Source of the DNA: Acidobacteriaceae bacterium | GTDB taxonomy: Bacteria > Acidobacteriota > Terriglobia > Terriglobales > Acidobacteriaceae | DNA length: 64,000 bases | Direction: 5' to 3' | NCBI GenBank assembly: GCA_035944135.1 | Contig: DASZBM010000002.1 | Location: 1,550,001-1,614,000 of the forward strand | Shown: one piece after another, positions 28,976 to 36,697 of the stretch | Position numbering within the stretch: position 1 is the first letter of the stretch | Layout: each line of letters starts with the position of its first letter | Position numbers and translations under genes: made by a program | Notes under the pieces: generated by a model | Seen by the model: the letters and a program-made list of their open reading frames with translations, nothing else | What the model was told of the DNA's origin: nothing | Databases searched by the model: none

Positions 28976-30510
28976 GGCGCCTCTTTCTTCAGCGACCACA
29001 GCTCCAGCTCCGCTCCTCCGCGCGACGGAATCAGCTCCATGATCACGCGCTTCGGAAACACACGCGTGCGCACCCGCACCGCCGTCGTGGTCCCGCGATC
29101 CTGGTTCAGCGTCTGCGCCAGCCGCAGCAGCACCACCGCGCGAATCACGTGCGTATGTTCCTCCAGCGGCACCGTGCGCATAATGCGGTCCATCGGATCC
29201 GGCCGCGTCTTGCCCAGGTAACGCGCAATCGCCCCTACAATCGCCCGCTGCTGCGGCGAGAACCCGAAGATCTCGGAGTTCGCAATGATGTATTGCGTGT
29301 GCCGGTATCTCCCCTGGTGGTTCATGTACTTGCCCACGCCCTGCATCATCGCCGCCGCGCGCAGCCACAGCCTGTACTCTTCCGGCAGCTCGTGCACGCG
29401 CTCCAGTTGATCGAAGATCTGCCCTGCCTGCTCGCTGTGCGCAGTCGCCTTCTTCAGATCGATGCCATAGTGCTTACATAGATGAACCACCCCGCGCCAC
29501 CGCTCCGCTTCCATCGTGCGATGCACAGTGGCACGCGTGTCCGTCTCTGCCAGCATCTGCGCCAGCATGCCATCGCGCAGCCCTAGCCGCGAGTAGCGGA
29601 ATCCCTTCAGCTCCATCCGCTCCAGCAGCGTCGCGTACACCTGCGCTCCGCCGCAGATAATCTCTGACCTCCGCGGCCCGATTCCCGGCATCGCCGCGCG
29701 CTGCGCGTTGGTCATCTTCAGCAGACGATCGGCAATTCTTCGCACCGCCGCCGCGCTCGTCGCCAGCGTCGCGTCACGCATCACACGCGCGCGTTTGCCG
29801 CGCGCCTGCTTCGTCGGCGCACGTTCGATAACGTCCTCTGCCGGAAGCGAGTGTGAAGCCTCGGCCAATGCCGCCGCCGTTCCTGACGTCGCAATCACCA
29901 GCCCTACGCGCGGGTGACCAAGCTTCCGCTCTCCACGACGCAGCTCACGATCGATAAACTTTCGCAGCCTCGCTACATCGACCTTGCTCGGCGGGTCGCT
30001 CCTCAAAAACTCCTGCTGCAAACGCACGGCTCCCAGCGGCAGACTCACCATGCTCTGAATGCGTCCCTGGTCCGATAGCGTCACCTCGCAGCTTCCGCCG
30101 CCGAGATCAATCAGCAGGCACTTGCCGCGCGCTCCCGCCTCGTGCGTCACCACTCCCAGGTGAATCAACCGGCCCTCTTCGAGCCCCGAGATGATCTCGA
30201 CATTCCACCCGGTCGTCGACTTCACCCACGCGCGAAATGCCTCCGAGTTCCGCGCATCGCGCATCGCGCTCGTCGCCACCACACGCACGCGGTCCGCGAC
30301 ATGCATCTGCGTTGCACGATGAAATCTCTTCAGGGCCTTGATGGTGTTCGCCATCGCCTCCGGCGAGATAACCCCAGTCTCGAAAACACTTTCGCCGAGC
30401 CTTGTTACCTCCCGGTCTTCGTACAACGTCTTAAGCTTGTGCTGCTGCACCGACGCGATCGCGAGCCGACAGGAGTTGGAGCCGATATCGATGGCTGCGA
30501 ACGTTGGCAT
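28927..30510 (-). CDS. ppx: Ppx/GppA exopolyphosphatase / pppGpp phosphatase
   Basis: 527-residue protein of the ASKHA fold that cleaves polyphosphate or pppGpp from the end. The N-terminal phosphate loop AAIDIGSNSCRL is at residues 5-16, VVATSAMRDARN and LLIDLGGGSCEV follow, and the C-terminal half is the helical HD-like domain of long Ppx proteins (ERWRGVVHLCKHYGID onwards). The upstream neighbour, a GT39 gene, is divergent. Ppx and SixA often share a neighbourhood with polyphosphate kinase, which is not in the window. Confidence 0.92.
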   Translation of the reverse strand: MPTFAAIDIGSNSCRLAIASVQQHKLKTLYEDREVTRLGESVFETGVISPEAMANTIKALKRFHRATQMHVADRVRVVATSAMRDARNSEAFRAWVKSTTGWNVEIISGLEEGRLIHLGVVTHEAGARGKCLLIDLGGGSCEVTLSDQGRIQSMVSLPLGAVRLQQEFLRSDPPSKVDVARLRKFIDRELRRGERKLGHPRVGLVIATSGTAAALAEASHSLPAEDVIERAPTKQARGKRARVMRDATLATSAAAVRRIADRLLKMTNAQRAAMPGIGPRRSEIICGGAQVYATLLERMELKGFRYSRLGLRDGMLAQMLAETDTRATVHRTMEAERWRGVVHLCKHYGIDLKKATAHSEQAGQIFDQLERVHELPEEYRLWLRAAAMMQGVGKYMNHQGRYRHTQYIIANSEIFGFSPQQRAIVGAIARYLGKTRPDPMDRIMRTVPLEEHTHVIRAVVLLRLAQTLNQDRGTTTAVRVRTRVFPKRVIMELIPSRGGAELELWSLKKEAPYFREVFRRELFVEVA

Positions 30511-30584
30511 TAAATGTTGAATCCTTCGTCGAGTTGAGTTCGTCCTTCTCTAGCAAGATACATTGGCGGCTACATCCCCCACGC

Positions 30585-32639
30585 ATGAGACGACCATCAA
30601 TTCCTGTCTTTACCGCGCATTCCCTCACAACAAATCCACAACTGCGCGCAATTGTTGCCGAGCCATCTCCCGCTCGTCCCGTTCTCTACGTTGAGAGCAC
30701 GCCTCGCGCCTCACCGCATCCCGAGCCCTGGTCCCGCCGCAGCGTACTCGTTCTTCTCGCGCTCTGGGCCGCAATGTTCCTCGCCGCCGCAGCCACACCC
30801 TCTCTGCTTGACGACGCCGACGCCACACACTCGCAAGCCGCGCAGGCCATGCTCCACACCGGCGACTGGGTCACGCTTCACGTCAACGGCATTCGCTATC
30901 TCGAAAAGCCGCCCCTGCCCTACTGGATCGCTGCATCCAGCCTCCGCATCTTCGGCGAGAACACCTTCGCCATCCATCTCCCGCTCGCACTAACCGTCCT
31001 CGGCCTCGCTCTGCTCGCGTATGCCTGGGGCCGCCGCGCTTTTTCTGAACGTGCCGGCTTCTACGCCGCGCTCTTCACCCTCACCTCCGTCGGCGTCTTC
31101 CTCTTCACACGCATCTTCATCCCCGACGCGCTGCTCTCTCTTCTTCTCGCACTCTCCATCTATGCCGCCCTCCGCGCCCTCGACATCCACGCGCAACGTC
31201 CGCGCCTCTGGGCCTTCCTCATGTGGAGCACCCTCGCCTGCGCCGTGCTCACCAAGGGCCTCGTCGCCATCGTCTTCCTCTTCGCCTCCGTCGGTCTCTT
31301 CCTGATCCTCACCGGCGAATGGCGTCGCTGGCGCCTGCTCCACCCCTTTACCGGCCTCGCCCTCTTCCTCGCGATTGCCGCGCCGTGGCACATCCTCGCC
31401 GCGCTGCGCAATCCAGCCGTGCCCATGCCCGCTGGCTCGGGCTTCCCATCGCACGCCGGCTGGACCTGGTTCTACCTCTACAACGAGCACATCGCGCGCT
31501 TCCTCGGCACCCGCGTCCCACGCGACTACAACAAGCTCCCCGCTGCGCTCTACTGGCTCCTTCACATCGTCTGGCTCTTCCCCTGGAGCCTATTCGCTCC
31601 CGCTGCCATCGCCGTCGCCTGGCGAGAACGAGGTTCACCGTCAGCTCGCTGGCTGGGGCTGGAACGTCACCGCCTCCGCGAGTCCCGTTGGCACAGTTTC
31701 CCGCGCCGTTCGTTCGCCGCCCGCACCATTCTCCTGCTCACCATCTTTTCGGCCATCATCCTCGCCTTCTTCTCGCTCTCCACCAACCAGGAGTACTACA
31801 CCTTCCCCGTCTACCTCCCGCTGCTCCTGCTCACCGCAGCCGCCCTCGCCCATCTCGAATCCGAGCCACTCACCTCCACTCGCACGCCGGGGTCCCTCAC
31901 CTTCGCGCACGCCGCGCTCACCGTCCTCGGCCTCATCATCGCCTCCGCGCTCACCTACGGCCTCTGGACCTCCCGCCACCTCGCCTTCGTTCCCGACATC
32001 GGCAGCCTGCTCGCACATCGCGGCGTCGGCGACTACACGCTCTCGATGTCCCACTTCTTCGACCTCACCGGCCCTTCCTTCGCCGCCCTTCGACTCCCCG
32101 CCGCGCTCGCCGCCATCGCCTTCGCCATCGGCCCGCTCGCCGCCTGGATCCTCCGCGCACGCCGCCACGCATTCGCGTCAACCCTCACCATCGCCCTCAC
32201 CGCGGCCACGTTCCTCATCGCCGCACACATCGCCCTCGTCCGCTTCGCGCCCATGCTCTCTTCGCGCGACTTCGCCTCCACCATCCAGAACCTCGAAGGT
32301 TCACACGCCATCGCCCCCGACAGCCAGGTCTTCCTCTACGGCGACCAGGCCTACGGCTCCTCCATCCCCTTCTACCTCGGCCAGCACGTTCAGCTCGTCG
32401 ACGGCCGCAGCACCTCCATGCTCTTCGGCAGCCTCTTCCCCGACGCACCGCACATCTTCCTCACACCCGCCGACCTGCTCGCTCAATGGGGCCGCGGCCC
32501 GCGTAAAATCCTCTTCGTCCCGCTCGAAAAGCGCGACATCGTCGACCACCTCCTCGGCCCGCACCAGATCCTCCTCAAAGAGACCTCCGGCAAAGCCCTC
32601 CTCACCGACCGCCCACTCGACCATCCTTCCGGGCAGTGA
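30585..32639 (+). CDS. GT39/ArnT-like glycosyltransferase, copy 1
   Basis: Membrane glycosyltransferase using polyprenyl-phosphate sugars (PMT/ArnT superfamily), 684 residues, about 11-12 TM. The first external loop holds the Asp pair of the family in SLLDDADATHSQAAQAML, followed by RYLEKPPLPYWIAA. The motif VLTKGLVAIVFLFA and FYLYNEHIARFLG are shared with the next gene, its tandem paralog. The ATG at 30585 is chosen; a start at 30504 overlaps ppx and lacks family-like sequence. It probably modifies a cell-envelope lipid or glycan. Confidence 0.88.
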   Translation: MRRPSIPVFTAHSLTTNPQLRAIVAEPSPARPVLYVESTPRASPHPEPWSRRSVLVLLALWAAMFLAAAATPSLLDDADATHSQAAQAMLHTGDWVTLHVNGIRYLEKPPLPYWIAASSLRIFGENTFAIHLPLALTVLGLALLAYAWGRRAFSERAGFYAALFTLTSVGVFLFTRIFIPDALLSLLLALSIYAALRALDIHAQRPRLWAFLMWSTLACAVLTKGLVAIVFLFASVGLFLILTGEWRRWRLLHPFTGLALFLAIAAPWHILAALRNPAVPMPAGSGFPSHAGWTWFYLYNEHIARFLGTRVPRDYNKLPAALYWLLHIVWLFPWSLFAPAAIAVAWRERGSPSARWLGLERHRLRESRWHSFPRRSFAARTILLLTIFSAIILAFFSLSTNQEYYTFPVYLPLLLLTAAALAHLESEPLTSTRTPGSLTFAHAALTVLGLIIASALTYGLWTSRHLAFVPDIGSLLAHRGVGDYTLSMSHFFDLTGPSFAALRLPAALAAIAFAIGPLAAWILRARRHAFASTLTIALTAATFLIAAHIALVRFAPMLSSRDFASTIQNLEGSHAIAPDSQVFLYGDQAYGSSIPFYLGQHVQLVDGRSTSMLFGSLFPDAPHIFLTPADLLAQWGRGPRKILFVPLEKRDIVDHLLGPHQILLKETSGKALLTDRPLDHPSGQ

Positions 32640-32696: not shown

Positions 32697-34787
32697 GTGA
32701 TCTCAACCACCGCAGTTCCGTCCCCCTCAAGCCCCACACGAGGCACCCTCGCTGCGCCCCGTTCCTGGCGCTTCAGCTCCCTCGCGCTCATCACCCTCCC
32801 CTGGCTCATCCTCTATCTCGGCGGCATCTTCACCCCCGGCCTTCTCGACGACGTCGACTCGGTCTACATCGAAGTCGCCCGCGAGATGCTCCTCCGCCAC
32901 GACTACGTCACTCCCTTCGTCGACGGCATCCGCTTCTTCGACAAGCCGCCCCTCATGTACTGGCTCGCCGCCGGCTCCATGCACATCTTTGGCATCCACG
33001 ACTGGGCCGCACGCCTCCCACTCGCCCTCGGCGTCCTCGCTCTCCTCTTCGCCGTCTACGCGCTAGGCATCCGCCTCTTCGCCGCCGTCTCCCCCACGCA
33101 CGCGCCCGACCGCGGCGGCCTCTACGCCGCACTCGCGATGGCGCTCTCCATCGGCCCCTGGCTCTACACCCGCTTCTACATCCCGGACATCCTCATCGCC
33201 CTCTGGATGACCCTCGCCGTCCACCTCTTCCTCATGGCCCTCGACCGCACTCGAATCCCCACCAATCCGGGCGCCCCGCGGACCACCGTCCCCCCGGGTG
33301 CCCCATTCATGCGCAGTCTCATCGCGCATGAGTGGGTTCGCACGCTCTCACAATCCCCACTCCTGCCCATGCTCGGCTTCGCCGCCGTCGTCGCCCTCAG
33401 CGTCCTCACCAAGGGCCTCATCGGCCTCGTCTTCCCCATCCTCTTCGCGATCCTCTACCTCGCGATCACCCGCCAACTCAAACTCCTCACCAAGCTCTCG
33501 CTCCTCCCCGCCACTCTCGCCTTCCTCGCCATCGCTCTCCCCTGGCACATCCTCGCCGCGCTCTGTAACCCTGCCATCGCCATGCCCAGCGGCGTCGGCC
33601 TCCCACCACGCGCCGGCTGGGCCTGGTTCTACCTCTACAACGAGCACATCGCGCGCTTCCTCGGCCGCCGCATCCCCCACGACTACGGCCAGGTCCCCAT
33701 CCCGCTCTTCTGGCTCCTGCTCGTCCTCTGGCTCTTCCCCTGGGCGGCTTTCCTGCCCACCGCGGTCATCAGCGCCGTCAAACACCTTCGTGACCGCCAC
33801 GCGCGCAACCATCCTCCCACCATCCCCCGCCAGCGCACTTTCATCCCCTTCCGCCTCACCGAAGCCCTCACCGCCCTACTGCTCTGGGCCGGCATCATCC
33901 TCGGCTTCTTTACCATCTCCTCGCGGCAGGAGTACTACCACCTTCCCGCACTCCCCGCGCTCGCGCTCCTCGTCGGCGGCCTACTCGCCGCGGCCGACGA
34001 CCACTTCTTCACCAACTATCCCTTCTACGCCGACCCACTCCGCCGCACCCTCCGTGCCTCCCTTTGGTTCCTCGTTCCCATCGGCACTCTCCTCTTCCTC
34101 ATCTGCGGATACTTCGCCCTCTTCTCACCGCGCCCTGCCGCCGGCGTCACGCTCAACGACCTCCTCAGCTCCAATCCCGCGCTCTACAACCTCTCGCTCG
34201 GCCACATCTTCGATCTCACCGGCTCCGCCATGGGCTTCTTCCGCTGGCCCCTCTCCATCGTCGCTGTCTCTGCGCTCGTTCTCGGCCCCATCCAGCACCT
34301 CGTCCGCCGTAGCGCCGTCGGCAAGCCACCCCACCCGCTTGGCCCGCGGTCACGCACCTTCGCGGCCAACCTCGTGCTTGCCGCCGCCACCACGGGCATC
34401 CTCCTCGCCGCCCACCAGGGCTACGTCCGCTTCAATCCCATCCTCGGCTCCAAAGACATCGCCCTTGCCATCAACGCCCAAAAGCGTCCCGGCGACCTCA
34501 TCCTCATCGACGGCGAGCTGACCTCCGGCTCATCCCTGCTCTTCTACACATGCGAGCCCGCCTTCCTCGTCAACGGCCACGTCAACGGCCCATGGTTCGG
34601 CAGCTTCTGGCCCGACGCCCCCCAAATCTTCCTCACCGACGCCGACCTCACCCGCCTCTGGTCCGGCCCCCACCGCATCTTCCTGCTGACGTACCACCCC
34701 ACCGAGCGCGAACACTTCCTCGCCCCCCAAGGCCCCGTCCACGACCTCGCCGACTCAGGCGGCAAAACGCTGCTCTCGAATCGCTAG
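32697..34787 (+). CDS. GT39/ArnT-like glycosyltransferase, copy 2
   Basis: Tandem paralog of the preceding gene, 696 residues, GTG start. It shares the catalytic-loop signature LLDDVDSVYIEVAREML, FFDKPPLMYWLAA, the SVLTKGLIGLVF helix and FYLYNEHIARFLG. Compared with copy 1 it has about 30 extra residues just before SVLTKG; they are largely encoded by a palindromic repeat (33294-33336). The stop TAG begins the heptad array at 34785. Confidence 0.87.
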   Translation: MISTTAVPSPSSPTRGTLAAPRSWRFSSLALITLPWLILYLGGIFTPGLLDDVDSVYIEVAREMLLRHDYVTPFVDGIRFFDKPPLMYWLAAGSMHIFGIHDWAARLPLALGVLALLFAVYALGIRLFAAVSPTHAPDRGGLYAALAMALSIGPWLYTRFYIPDILIALWMTLAVHLFLMALDRTRIPTNPGAPRTTVPPGAPFMRSLIAHEWVRTLSQSPLLPMLGFAAVVALSVLTKGLIGLVFPILFAILYLAITRQLKLLTKLSLLPATLAFLAIALPWHILAALCNPAIAMPSGVGLPPRAGWAWFYLYNEHIARFLGRRIPHDYGQVPIPLFWLLLVLWLFPWAAFLPTAVISAVKHLRDRHARNHPPTIPRQRTFIPFRLTEALTALLLWAGIILGFFTISSRQEYYHLPALPALALLVGGLLAAADDHFFTNYPFYADPLRRTLRASLWFLVPIGTLLFLICGYFALFSPRPAAGVTLNDLLSSNPALYNLSLGHIFDLTGSAMGFFRWPLSIVAVSALVLGPIQHLVRRSAVGKPPHPLGPRSRTFAANLVLAAATTGILLAAHQGYVRFNPILGSKDIALAINAQKRPGDLILIDGELTSGSSLLFYTCEPAFLVNGHVNGPWFGSFWPDAPQIFLTDADLTRLWSGPHRIFLLTYHPTEREHFLAPQGPVHDLADSGGKTLLSNR
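33294..33336. repeat. Palindromic repeat inserted in frame in GT39 copy 2
   Basis: CCGGGTG followed by CCCATTCATGCGC (33302-33314), a 9-base loop and GCGCATGAGTGGG (33324-33336): 13-base arms with one G-T pair. The same left part and the ATGAGTGGG arm recur at 55244-55280 in a non-coding region. It is read through as coding sequence here. Confidence 0.75.
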
Positions 34788-34812
34788 TGGTTAGTGGTTA
34801 GTAGTTAGTGAG
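34785..34812. repeat. Heptad array, left copy
   Basis: Four tandem heptads with consensus TAGTGGT. The first TAG is the stop codon of GT39 copy 2. The array is inverted relative to the one at 35200-35230. Confidence 0.8.
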
Positions 34813-35210
34813 TTCTTGTCTGAGATACGATTTCGGATTGTGGCGATCGACGCATTCAGGATTGTGCCGACTTCCACCGCGAGTTGCTGCGTCAATTCCA
34901 GCTCGTCACGTTCGCCGAATCCGAGCGTCACTGCCAGCTCAAGCTGAGTTTCAACCTCCAGTGCCGAGCCTCTGGCAATTCCGAGGAAATGCAGAAATTC
35001 TCGTCGTGAAAGTCTCCCTCATCCCTCCGCAATATTGCTTGGCACCGAAACCGCGGCTCTCCGCAACTGATTCGTAAGCCCGAATCGCTCATCTGCCGGA
35101 AATGTTCGAGTGACCCTGTAAACCGCAGCAGTGAGCTCCATTGCCTTTTGCCACGCCACCGAACCCCGCAAAGAAGAAACCGCCAAACCAGCCCGCCTTT
35201 CACTAACCAC
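34791..35210 (-). pseudogene. Four-helix-bundle (S23-type) protein with in-frame TGA
   Basis: The first part (63 codons from GTG 35210) contains VAWQKAMELTAAVYRVTR, LRRAAVSVPSNIAEG, the signature of the four-helix-bundle family that includes 23S rRNA intervening-sequence proteins. A TGA at 35021-35019 follows EG. The same frame then continues with GRLSRREFLHFLGIARGS and LEVETQLELAVTLGF to a TAA at 34793-34791, which is the expected second half. So one in-frame nonsense codon interrupts an otherwise intact gene. Both its start and its end lie inside inverted heptad arrays. Start further downstream is possible. Confidence 0.8.
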
Positions 35211-35230
35211 TAACTACTAACCACTAACTA
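35200..35230. repeat. Heptad array, right copy
   Basis: Four TAGTGGT-like heptads read on the minus strand, mirror image of the left array; an 18-base stretch (35208-35225) is the exact reverse complement of 34793-34810. Its first TAG is the stop codon of the HpnI-like gene. Confidence 0.8.
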
Positions 35231-36415
35231 CTCGCCTTCCGGCGCTTCCACCCGTCCCCCCGGCTTCAACTTATAAATCTTCCCGCGGTAATAAAAATTC
35301 TCCCCACCATAGCTGCCGACCCACAAGACCCAACCCAGCAGATCACGCAGCGGATAAATCGCCGTATTCGAAAGCCACTCCGAATCCCCCAGCGCGGTCA
35401 GCACCGCGCCTGCCTGCAGCCACCGGTTCGCCACCATCGCCAGCAGCCAAAGCACGCCGATCACCGCATGCCCGCTCCACAAGCCCCACAGCAATCCCAG
35501 CAAACCAAACGGCATCGCGAACGTCAGCCCGCTCCCGAAATGCCCCCACGGCCGTGAACGCCGCGTGCTCTGCATCCACCGCAACTGATTCCGGAAGCTC
35601 AGCCCAAACGGCGAATCCTGCACCATCAGCCGGATCACATGCGTCGCCATCTTCACGCCCGTTCCCTGCGCTGCCAGCCGGTTTCCCAGCACAAAATCGT
35701 CGGCATAAAACTGCCCCAGCTCGTCGAAGCCGCCCACATCCTGGAAGCTCTTCCGCCGCACCGCCATCGTCGCGCCCAGGGCGAACTTCGTGCCCTCAAT
35801 CATGTCCGCGACCAGCACGCCGCTCGTCATCTCCACGCTCTTTCCCACCGCGTCCAGCTTCGACGCCAGCCCCGCGCCCTCATGCGGCGTCCCCAGATAA
35901 ACGCAGCTCGCCAGCCCCACATGCGGGTCCTTCAGCGTCTGAATCATCGCGCGCAGATAATTCGGCCGCACCCGCACATCCGCATCGCTCGTAATGAACA
36001 GATCATTTTCCGCGACGGAATCCAGCTTCGCCAGCGAGTACACCTTGGCGTTGTGAAACTTCGGCATAGGCTCGCCGCAGGTCACGAACTTCGCGTTCAC
36101 ATGCGGATACTTCGCTCCCACGCGCCGCGCCAGCCGCAGCCCCTCATCCGAATCATGCCGCGCGCAGAACAGCAGCTCATAGTCCGGATAGTCCTGCTCA
36201 AAAAACGTCTCGAAGTTTCGCTCCATGCCCTGTTCGGTCCCATGGACCGGCTTCAGCACGCTCAGCTTCGGCAGATAATCCGCTGGTATACGTTCCTCAC
36301 GCCGCCGCCGCAGCCCAAACCGGGCCGCCGCCGCCACTACCATACCGCAGTAAATCGAAGAGGTCACCGACCCCACGGCCGCAACCCAGAACAAAACGCG
36401 AAGTGCAATATGCAT
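35228..36415 (-). CDS. HpnI-like / ceramide-glucosyltransferase-like GT2 enzyme
   Basis: Membrane-associated glycosyltransferase (395 residues from ATG 36415; a start at 36451 adds 12). N-terminal TM, then a GT2 catalytic domain with LSVLKPVHGTE, the DXD-type TSDADVRVRPNYL, the acceptor-base region YADDFVLGNR and the QLRWMQSTRR motif (Q/RxxRW), then three C-terminal TMs. The closest families are HpnI, which adds N-acetylglucosamine to bacteriohopanetetrol, and ceramide glucosyltransferases. No other hopanoid gene is in view, so the acceptor is uncertain. Its stop TAG is part of the right heptad array. Confidence 0.83.
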   Translation of the reverse strand: MHIALRVLFWVAAVGSVTSSIYCGMVVAAAARFGLRRRREERIPADYLPKLSVLKPVHGTEQGMERNFETFFEQDYPDYELLFCARHDSDEGLRLARRVGAKYPHVNAKFVTCGEPMPKFHNAKVYSLAKLDSVAENDLFITSDADVRVRPNYLRAMIQTLKDPHVGLASCVYLGTPHEGAGLASKLDAVGKSVEMTSGVLVADMIEGTKFALGATMAVRRKSFQDVGGFDELGQFYADDFVLGNRLAAQGTGVKMATHVIRLMVQDSPFGLSFRNQLRWMQSTRRSRPWGHFGSGLTFAMPFGLLGLLWGLWSGHAVIGVLWLLAMVANRWLQAGAVLTALGDSEWLSNTAIYPLRDLLGWVLWVGSYGGENFYYRGKIYKLKPGGRVEAPEGE

Positions 36416-36697
36416 ATTTAGAAAAAACACGGGCTCATGAAGCCAAAACACGGGCTTCCCGATGGCGACTTCAGCCGCAAAACCCCGTCCTCCAGTGTAG
36501 TTCAGCTCGAACGGCGCGTTCTATACCGGCCTAAGGGGAAACCTTAGGTCAGCTCATTTTTTTGACTCCAAAGGGCTGAAGGCCCGACCTATACGCCGAG
36601 GGCGCCGCAACTAACTTGCGGCTCGAAGCTTCCAGCTCCATCGCATGATGCGAACCATCCAGCGGGGACCCGGTTCCTGAAGTTCAAACCGAAACAG
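36416..36697. other. Intergenic region with hairpins, no gene
   Basis: Between the HpnI-like gene and the catalase terminator I see no supported gene. It contains CCTAAGG-GGAAA-CCTTAGG (36530-36548), followed on the plus strand by a T-run, and GGGCTGAAGGCCC (36573-36585), a REP-like palindrome. The promoter of the HpnI-like gene should be here but is not obvious. Confidence 0.6.

Follow-up and report, generated by a model that had tools for sequence, protein, structure and literature searches.

An S23 gene between inverted heptad arrays in an Acidobacteriaceae genome: a candidate IVS-like mobile element

The S23 locus of the window

The window is the 64-kb stretch of Acidobacteriaceae DNA that was analysed here. 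It carries an interrupted gene of the S23 / 23S_rRNA_IVP family, which is flanked by two arrays of heptad repeats and lies between two genes for glycosyltransferases (Table 1). A further PMT_2-family glycosyltransferase gene (30504-32639, plus strand) adjoins the one at 32697-34787, and the two are probably paralogues.

Table 1. Features of the S23 locus, in window coordinates
Feature	Position	Strand	Remarks
Upstream arm (relative to S23)	35200..35234		Heptad array; holds the stop codon of the minus-strand neighbour (35228-35230)
Downstream arm	34777..34811		Inverted heptad array; holds the stop codon of the plus-strand neighbour (34785-34787) and the S23 stop codon (34791-34793)
S23 / 23S_rRNA_IVP frame (PF05635)	34791..35210	minus	One interruption; start codon GTG or TTG, no ATG
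In-frame TGA, directly after NIAEG	35019..35021	minus	S23 frame otherwise open
Neighbour 1, PMT_2 family membrane glycosyltransferase	32697..34787	plus	Convergent with the box
Neighbour 2, glycosyltransferase family 21 (GT21)	35228..36451	minus	Shares the strand of S23; immediately upstream of the box

The first-pass annotation of this DNA had described inverted heptad arrays around the gene, and they are real. Tandem Repeats Finder reported 3.7 units of TAGTGGT at 34785-34810 and 4.6 units of CACTAAC at 35201-35232, a repeat search returned the two arms as an inverted pair of 35 nt (86% complementary, 388 nt spacing), and the arm match exceeded that in all 100 shuffles of the locus. The same annotation had placed the whole reading frame between the arrays. 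The arrays do flank the gene, but the end of the frame (SLTTNH and the stop codon) falls within the array at 34785-34811. Its description of a gene complete except for a single TGA was borne out: with the stop read as X, the frame matched PF05635 at 1.9e-36 (124.9 bits, gathering cut-off 33.8). The closest PDB relatives of the protein were 2gsc (XCC0516) and 2rld.

The unit, here called an S23 heptad box, runs from the stop codon of one neighbour (TAG) to that of the other, both of which lie in the arrays. Its only domain matches were to PF05635 and, weakly, to bAvd, without any transposase domain, and domain profile searches found no known catalytic domain in S23. A search with Rfam gave a single match, far below the Rfam cut-off. 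When folded as RNA, the box was predicted to pair its arms into a long closing stem (z -5.79). An array detector run on the entire window found the two box arrays and one 19-nt array at 30251, and no others.

Boxes and arrays in the home genome

The home genome (4.43 Mb) is of the same genus as G022, whose locus L022 matches L071 of Granulicella mallensis X5P3 without a difference over 3,118 nt, which places the host among the acidobacteria. It contains five PF05635 matches. The four other than the window copy lack an internal stop; the TGA is peculiar to this copy and does not define the element. Reading of the flanks showed that four of the five S23 loci are boxed, each with a different repeat word: TAGTGGT (window), TAGTGAA, TAGGTTC and the octad AGTCAGCG. 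At the remaining locus there is an upstream array alone.

Arrays also occur apart from S23 genes. The window word, searched as a doublet with at most one mismatch, matched the home genome 64 times, against once for the reversed pattern. Arrays with random neighbours, which the first-pass annotation had named as evidence against a gene-array unit, were found in part: 14 arrays lie in the 400 kb sampled from this genome, and one of these has an inverted partner no more than 700 bp away. Words of the genome's own five boxes recur in six of these arrays; when five boxes were drawn at random from elsewhere, the number of matching arrays averaged 0.74 and never exceeded 4. For this reason we regard the gene-less arrays as box derivatives and not as a refutation; their words fit a derivation from boxes. 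In the sampled stretches of the home genome (L238-L257), heptad or octad arrays number about 35 per Mb, a density far above that in the six other genomes sampled. Those contained 0 or 1 array in 120-140 kb each, with S23 matches in four of the six, and two genomes with three to four S23 genes each (G002 and G273) had no array in the 140 kb sampled per genome. The home genome is thus unusually array-rich, and therefore S23 does not always spread arrays.

At GT21 orthologues from the same genus, an S23 match within 1.5 kb behind the gene was found in 0 of 21 cases and a PMT_2 gene in 14 of 21. Six of the 21 have adjacent heptad hairpins of other words, one of them closing a 7-nt loop with a perfect 33-bp stem, without an S23 gene, which again agrees in part with the objection about random neighbours. 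In G002, the window site has a gene-less heptad array or hairpin at a site that is boxed with S23 in other species.

Boxed anatomy among S23 loci

For each locus, the 300 nt following the S23 domain were reverse-complemented and compared with the 250 nt preceding it. One hundred dinucleotide shuffles per locus served as the null, and a locus that exceeded every shuffle was counted as armed. Boxed anatomy is general among S23 loci. The search for S23 genes beside inverted arrays that the first-pass annotation had proposed returned matching inverted flanks at 184 of 218 loci: 74 of 90 from the home phylum, 64 of 79 named loci (from the best 80 of 587 confirmed) and 46 of 49 from IMG/VR. The corresponding non-inverted comparison exceeded all shuffles at 25 of the 218 loci. 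S23 genes without arms, which had been listed beforehand as counter-evidence, do exist (34/218). The loci come from best matches, and the sets are therefore biased to typical S23 proteins; near-duplicates were retained in the 218-locus test.

The median arm score was 20 for 62 home-phylum loci, against 9 for mismatched pairs. For the 79 named loci (from the best 80 of 587) it was likewise 20, against 8.5 for mismatched pairs, 9.5 for direct and 9.0 for reversed comparisons. These named loci fall into 15 phylum- or class-level groups, labelled by us from record titles, with at least one armed locus in every group; armed loci numbered 11/17 in Bacteroidetes and 7/10 in Firmicutes. Of the 66 matches listed for Lysobacteraceae, 29 were used, and 26 of these had arms, as did 12 of 14 loci from six named genomes, a set that includes 5 loci already among the named ones, and 13 of 20 further relatives. 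In the relatives, 60 matches were listed, 33 of which were read first and 20 later, the remaining 7 lying outside the test. The phylum set consisted of 29 new loci drawn from 107 S23-positive genomes among 247, and G181 and G229 contributed 30 of their 33 matches, 28 of them new. For IMG/VR, 62 loci were available; 50 were run after omission of 12 that were evident near-duplicates, weak or partial, and 49 had sufficient flank, as did 79 of the best 80 named loci.

Controls were rarely armed: arms appeared at 5 of 400 random placements, at 2 of 199 small ORFs (from 60 stretches of seven genomes) and at 0 of 10 loci of bAvd homologues in the phylum. Together with the mismatched, direct and reversed comparisons and the shuffles, the random placements and small ORFs led us to reject chance or low complexity as the source of the arm match. 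The one high-scoring control ORF (L262) resembles, on reading, a repeat-protein gene rather than a box. A His signature did not separate arm-less from armed S23 proteins, since 13 of 19 loci with the signature and 142 of 167 without it were armed. A single S23 query had no match in 50,697 phage records, and matched 30 plasmid records, largely cyanobacterial.

Anatomy and placement of the boxes

Among the 184 arm pairs, the period was 7 nt in 141, 8 nt in 22 and 9 nt in 3, with no clear period in 18. The upstream arm had more G than C in 164 pairs and less in 16. The median box length was about 480 nt. Seven near-duplicates were removed for the analyses of neighbours, placement and mismatches. 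The upstream arm starts a median of 1 nt past the stop codon of the same-strand neighbour (n = 85), overlapping that stop in 39 of the 85, and the downstream arm ends a median of 12.5 nt ahead of the next same-strand start (n = 70); neighbour calls were ambiguous on the upstream side in 56 of 171 cases and on the downstream side in 57 of 172. Where both neighbours were called (n = 78), 50 boxes were co-directional with both, 12 lay between converging genes as in the window, 14 were antisense to both and 2 had other arrangements.

Mismatches between arms were evenly divided between G-U (178) and A-C (163; p = 0.45), with no excess of G-U, as in an earlier count of 129 and 107. RNA pairing as the sole cause of arm matching was therefore rejected, although this is a weak test with which a role of RNA is still compatible.

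Several individual boxes are of note. Two neighbouring boxes about 3 kb apart (L471 and L478; G039, C14) have the words AGTTCCG and AGTGCTG, each with perfect 31-nt arms. In a Terriglobia MAG (L099, S23 gene at 2501-2818), perfect AGTTCTC arrays of about 120 nt lie on both sides, the longest arms seen, and may be an effect of assembly. Two Lysobacteraceae boxes (L374 and L375) stand behind a putative carA; the upstream array of L375 seems to be in frame in that gene and may encode its C-terminus.

Filled and empty sites

The box occurs as a unit, arms included, at different sites. Two loci of one genome (L337 and L344) are 83.5% identical over 534 nt that include arms and gene, with unrelated flanks, and two loci from two genomes (L009 and L021) have word and gene in common at different sites. 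The names rpoA, rplQ, pheS, pheT, mutL, fabD, accB, accC, carA and carB are used for what we take these genes to be from their sequences, without database assignment.

The comparison of filled and empty sites that the first-pass annotation had suggested was possible at three addresses. Between pheS and pheT (22 loci), 2 sites are filled, 8 have a 4-nt gene overlap, 1 has a 6-nt spacer and 3 have longer other sequence; the other 8 loci showed no pheS upstream. At the gene overlap the nearest empty sister has TTGA, where the filled sites have TTGA, box, ATGA and leave both genes intact. The difference between them is the box plus a duplication of 3-4 nt. This is a single event, in which a viable insertion needed a stop and a start codon in any case. 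Between rpoA and rplQ, 6 of 25 sites are filled, with S23 orthologues in six species; by eye, the box replaces a GC-rich hairpin and part of the spacer, and a target duplication is unreadable. Of 21 sites upstream of mutL, 3 are filled, 1 has gene-less arrays (L445, in G018), 5 have a spacer of 45-65 nt, 10 have longer spacers and 2 are unreadable. There the box stands in place of the spacer, and a target duplication is again unreadable. Two genomes have 16 and 17 copies; among the 30 of these 33 that were read, a single pair is close, at 88% identity, and the next reaches 62%, so that movement is rare.

Word turnover and arm matching

Words turn over at common sites while the two arms of a box stay matched. 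Within a genome, words differ between boxes and arms match within each box, so independent copies do not have the same terminal sequence, as an insertion sequence or MITE with fixed inverted ends would. Arm-arm similarity averages 0.71 within a box, against 0.24 between boxes at 55-65% protein identity and a baseline of 0.17. Word similarity nevertheless tracks protein identity (Mantel r = 0.16, null sd 0.024, for pairs below 75%). The filled rpoA-rplQ sites show three word families, each common to both arms, with exceptions: the upstream arm of G019 fits the downstream arms of G015 and G022 (25 and 23) better than its own (15), and that of G017 fits the downstream arm of G024 (15.5) slightly better than its own (14). 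At the same address in G019, L311 carries a tandem duplication of the upstream arm together with the sequence that follows it. Two Pontibacter loci (L096 and L132) have the same site, 75% protein identity and different words. In L098, L105 and L128 the arm match extends into neighbouring non-repeat bases, which makes the arms look like inverted copies rather than two expansions that arose independently.

Interpretation

The reading that we favour, with a probability of roughly 0.55, is that the S23 locus of the window is a nonsense-interrupted copy of an IVS-like mobile element of about 480 nt, in which the S23 ORF sits in the loop of a long hairpin and which resides between genes rather than in 23S rRNA. 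The first-pass annotation had suggested a mobile or domesticated element; a recurring unit that behaves like an element agrees with the former, and nothing points to domestication. In the proposed mechanism, the arms would pair in the transcript into a long stem with the S23 ORF in its loop, and the stem would probably be cut by RNase III as in the 23S rRNA IVSs, which would let a box be tolerated inside an operon. The S23 protein may recognise the hairpin, as RNA or as single-stranded DNA, and may promote copying of the box and of its array-only relatives to new sites. The word would drift through slippage, and the pair may be kept alike by copying of one arm onto the other or by selection for a matched stem. 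Several observations weigh against this reading. Its support for movement comes from sequence comparison and includes one duplication event, and insertion alone leaves the replacement of the spacer at mutL, and of part of it at rpoA-rplQ, unexplained. The arm matching is imperfect (G019 and G017), the mismatches carry no signal of RNA pairing, and 34 of the 218 S23 loci are armless. Further points against it are the rarity of close pairs in the copy-rich genomes, the lack of a known catalytic domain in S23 and the absence of arrays from the samples of G002 and G273 despite their S23 genes.

Boxes might instead be operon devices inherited vertically, the arms forming an RNA stem that is cut or bound and sets the expression of neighbouring genes, with S23 binding its own stem. 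The tight fit of boxes between ORFs, the 50 of 78 that are co-directional with both neighbours, the predicted pairing of the arms in the window (z -5.79) and the retention of S23 orthologues at rpoA-rplQ in six species would all be expected of such a device. It sits badly with presence and absence at common sites (rpoA-rplQ, pheS-pheT and mutL), with the unit at unrelated sites, with the 14 of 78 boxes antisense to both neighbours and with the lack of a G-U excess over A-C, and we consider it unlikely. A little less probable again is an origin from the hairpins themselves, by slippage and template switching in spacers such as terminators, with S23 genes settling in the loops later. Gene-less heptad hairpins at 6 of 21 GT21 orthologues (including the perfect 33-bp stem with its 7-nt loop), the gene-less arrays upstream of mutL in G018 and the inverted (GGGAATC)n pairs of Xanthomonas (70 and 75 cases in the available text of PMC4692102) are what this origin would leave behind. 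Against it, arrays are rare outside the home genome (0 or 1 per 120-140 kb in six genomes, four with S23 matches), the copied unit carries its arms along, bAvd genes and random small ORFs are not found in such loops, and the word follows the S23 lineage (Mantel r = 0.16, null sd 0.024).

That an unrelated transposase mobilises the boxes in trans, as with MITEs, and that S23 is cargo, is very improbable. Inverted ends, a duplication of 3-4 nt and gene-less derivatives are indeed traits of trans-mobilised elements, but words are almost all peculiar to a single box, and a transposase that depends on fixed ends would not permit this; moreover, S23 is the cargo in 15 groups (named loci, best 80 of 587), while other small ORFs are boxed in 2 of 199 cases.

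Beyond the IVS-like mobile element, a broader scenario can be put forward tentatively, and we hold it to be possible but doubtful. S23 boxes would be a pan-bacterial mobile class of a new kind, with ends of drifting heptads in place of fixed sequences, kept alike by arm-to-arm copying. At both host junctions the G-rich 3' ends face into the box, which would suit priming of templated (telomerase-like) or snap-back synthesis at these points, with S23 guiding it. IVSs would then be the rRNA-resident members, the Avd of diversity-generating retroelements (DGRs) a relative that kept the protein and not the ends, and Xanthomonas-type repeats footprints.

Significance

Relatives boxed likewise across bacterial groups, each with its own word, suggest that a very small type of mobile element has been overlooked. 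The boxes join two questions, the function of the S23 / 23S_rRNA_IVP family and the origin of intergenic heptanucleotide arrays, for which the available text of PMC4692102 and PMC4679880 offers no mechanism, and both become testable. They also provide a natural example in which inverted repeats change their sequence and the arms nevertheless remain matched, which is useful for studies of concerted evolution. Annotators could spot boxes by their anatomy, and many genes annotated as "four helix bundle protein" are candidate element genes.

Comparison with known systems

REP/RAYT elements and MITEs offer the general plan of a gene between short inverted repeats with gene-less derivatives across the genome. 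S23 boxes differ from both by the absence of a transposase domain and by ends that vary from box to box.

The intervening sequences (IVSs) of 23S rRNA with an S23p ORF, known from Coxiella, Leptospira and others, likewise hold an S23 ORF in a stem loop formed by terminal arms (PMC4990558). The Coxiella IVS, as described in the accessible part of that paper, is closed by a 28-bp terminal stem, has tandem heptamers ahead of the ORF and is excised by RNase III; at 428 nt it is comparable with the median box of about 480 nt, and its heptamers stand in the 5' arm as the tandem heptads do in the box arms. The same text gives the function of the S23 / 23S_rRNA_IVP family as not known (PMC4990558). 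IVSs sit in helices of 23S rRNA, whereas boxes sit between protein genes, and cutting by RNase III is established for the IVSs only. The window box lies between two glycosyltransferase genes and not inside a 23S rRNA gene, so we call it IVS-like rather than an IVS. A scan for 11 rRNA motifs detected none at the S23 loci checked (L009-L212), which gives no rRNA-resident S23 copy among them, and the link to IVSs therefore rests on the literature.

The Avd (bAvd, PF22296) protein of DGRs is a homologous small four-helix protein, and this homology is discussed in the accessible text of PMC10053308. Four S23 proteins scored 19-30 bits against the bAvd profile and did not reach its gathering cut-off of 40. 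Unlike S23 boxes, bAvd loci lack arms (0/10 in the phylum); with 46 of 49 IMG/VR copies boxed, the possibility that these are DGR Avd genes was rejected.

The TAACTGA repeats of Beggiatoaceae are, like the boxes, intergenic tandem heptads, some of them over stop codons, and are suspected of horizontal spread, with no mechanism given in the part of the paper available (PMC4679880). They are almost exclusively direct repeats, in contrast to the inverted box arms, and the words S23 and four helix are absent from that text. Two Xanthomonas genomes have 186 and 183 (GGGAATC)n arrays, 70 and 75 of them in inverted pairs, and these repeats, together with GGGGA(C/T)T of Nostoc, are described in the available text as quadruplex-forming and unassociated with mobile elements (PMC4692102). 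In both genera, as in box arms, the G-rich strand is the coding strand just past a stop codon and the non-coding strand just before a start codon, and inverted pairs are frequent. The words S23 and four helix are absent from the same text (PMC4692102). In the open-licence PubMed Central literature, we found no paper linking S23 boxes with the Xanthomonas heptads, and no name for the pairing of an S23 gene with inverted heptads outside 23S rRNA, which agrees with the first-pass suggestion of an undescribed element type. Words of this family occur in Lysobacteraceae, where the upstream arm contains GGGAT or GGGAAT in 12 of 29 boxes, including one between a putative accB and accC (L382). The (GGGAATC)n repeats of Xanthomonas look like the ends of S23 boxes.
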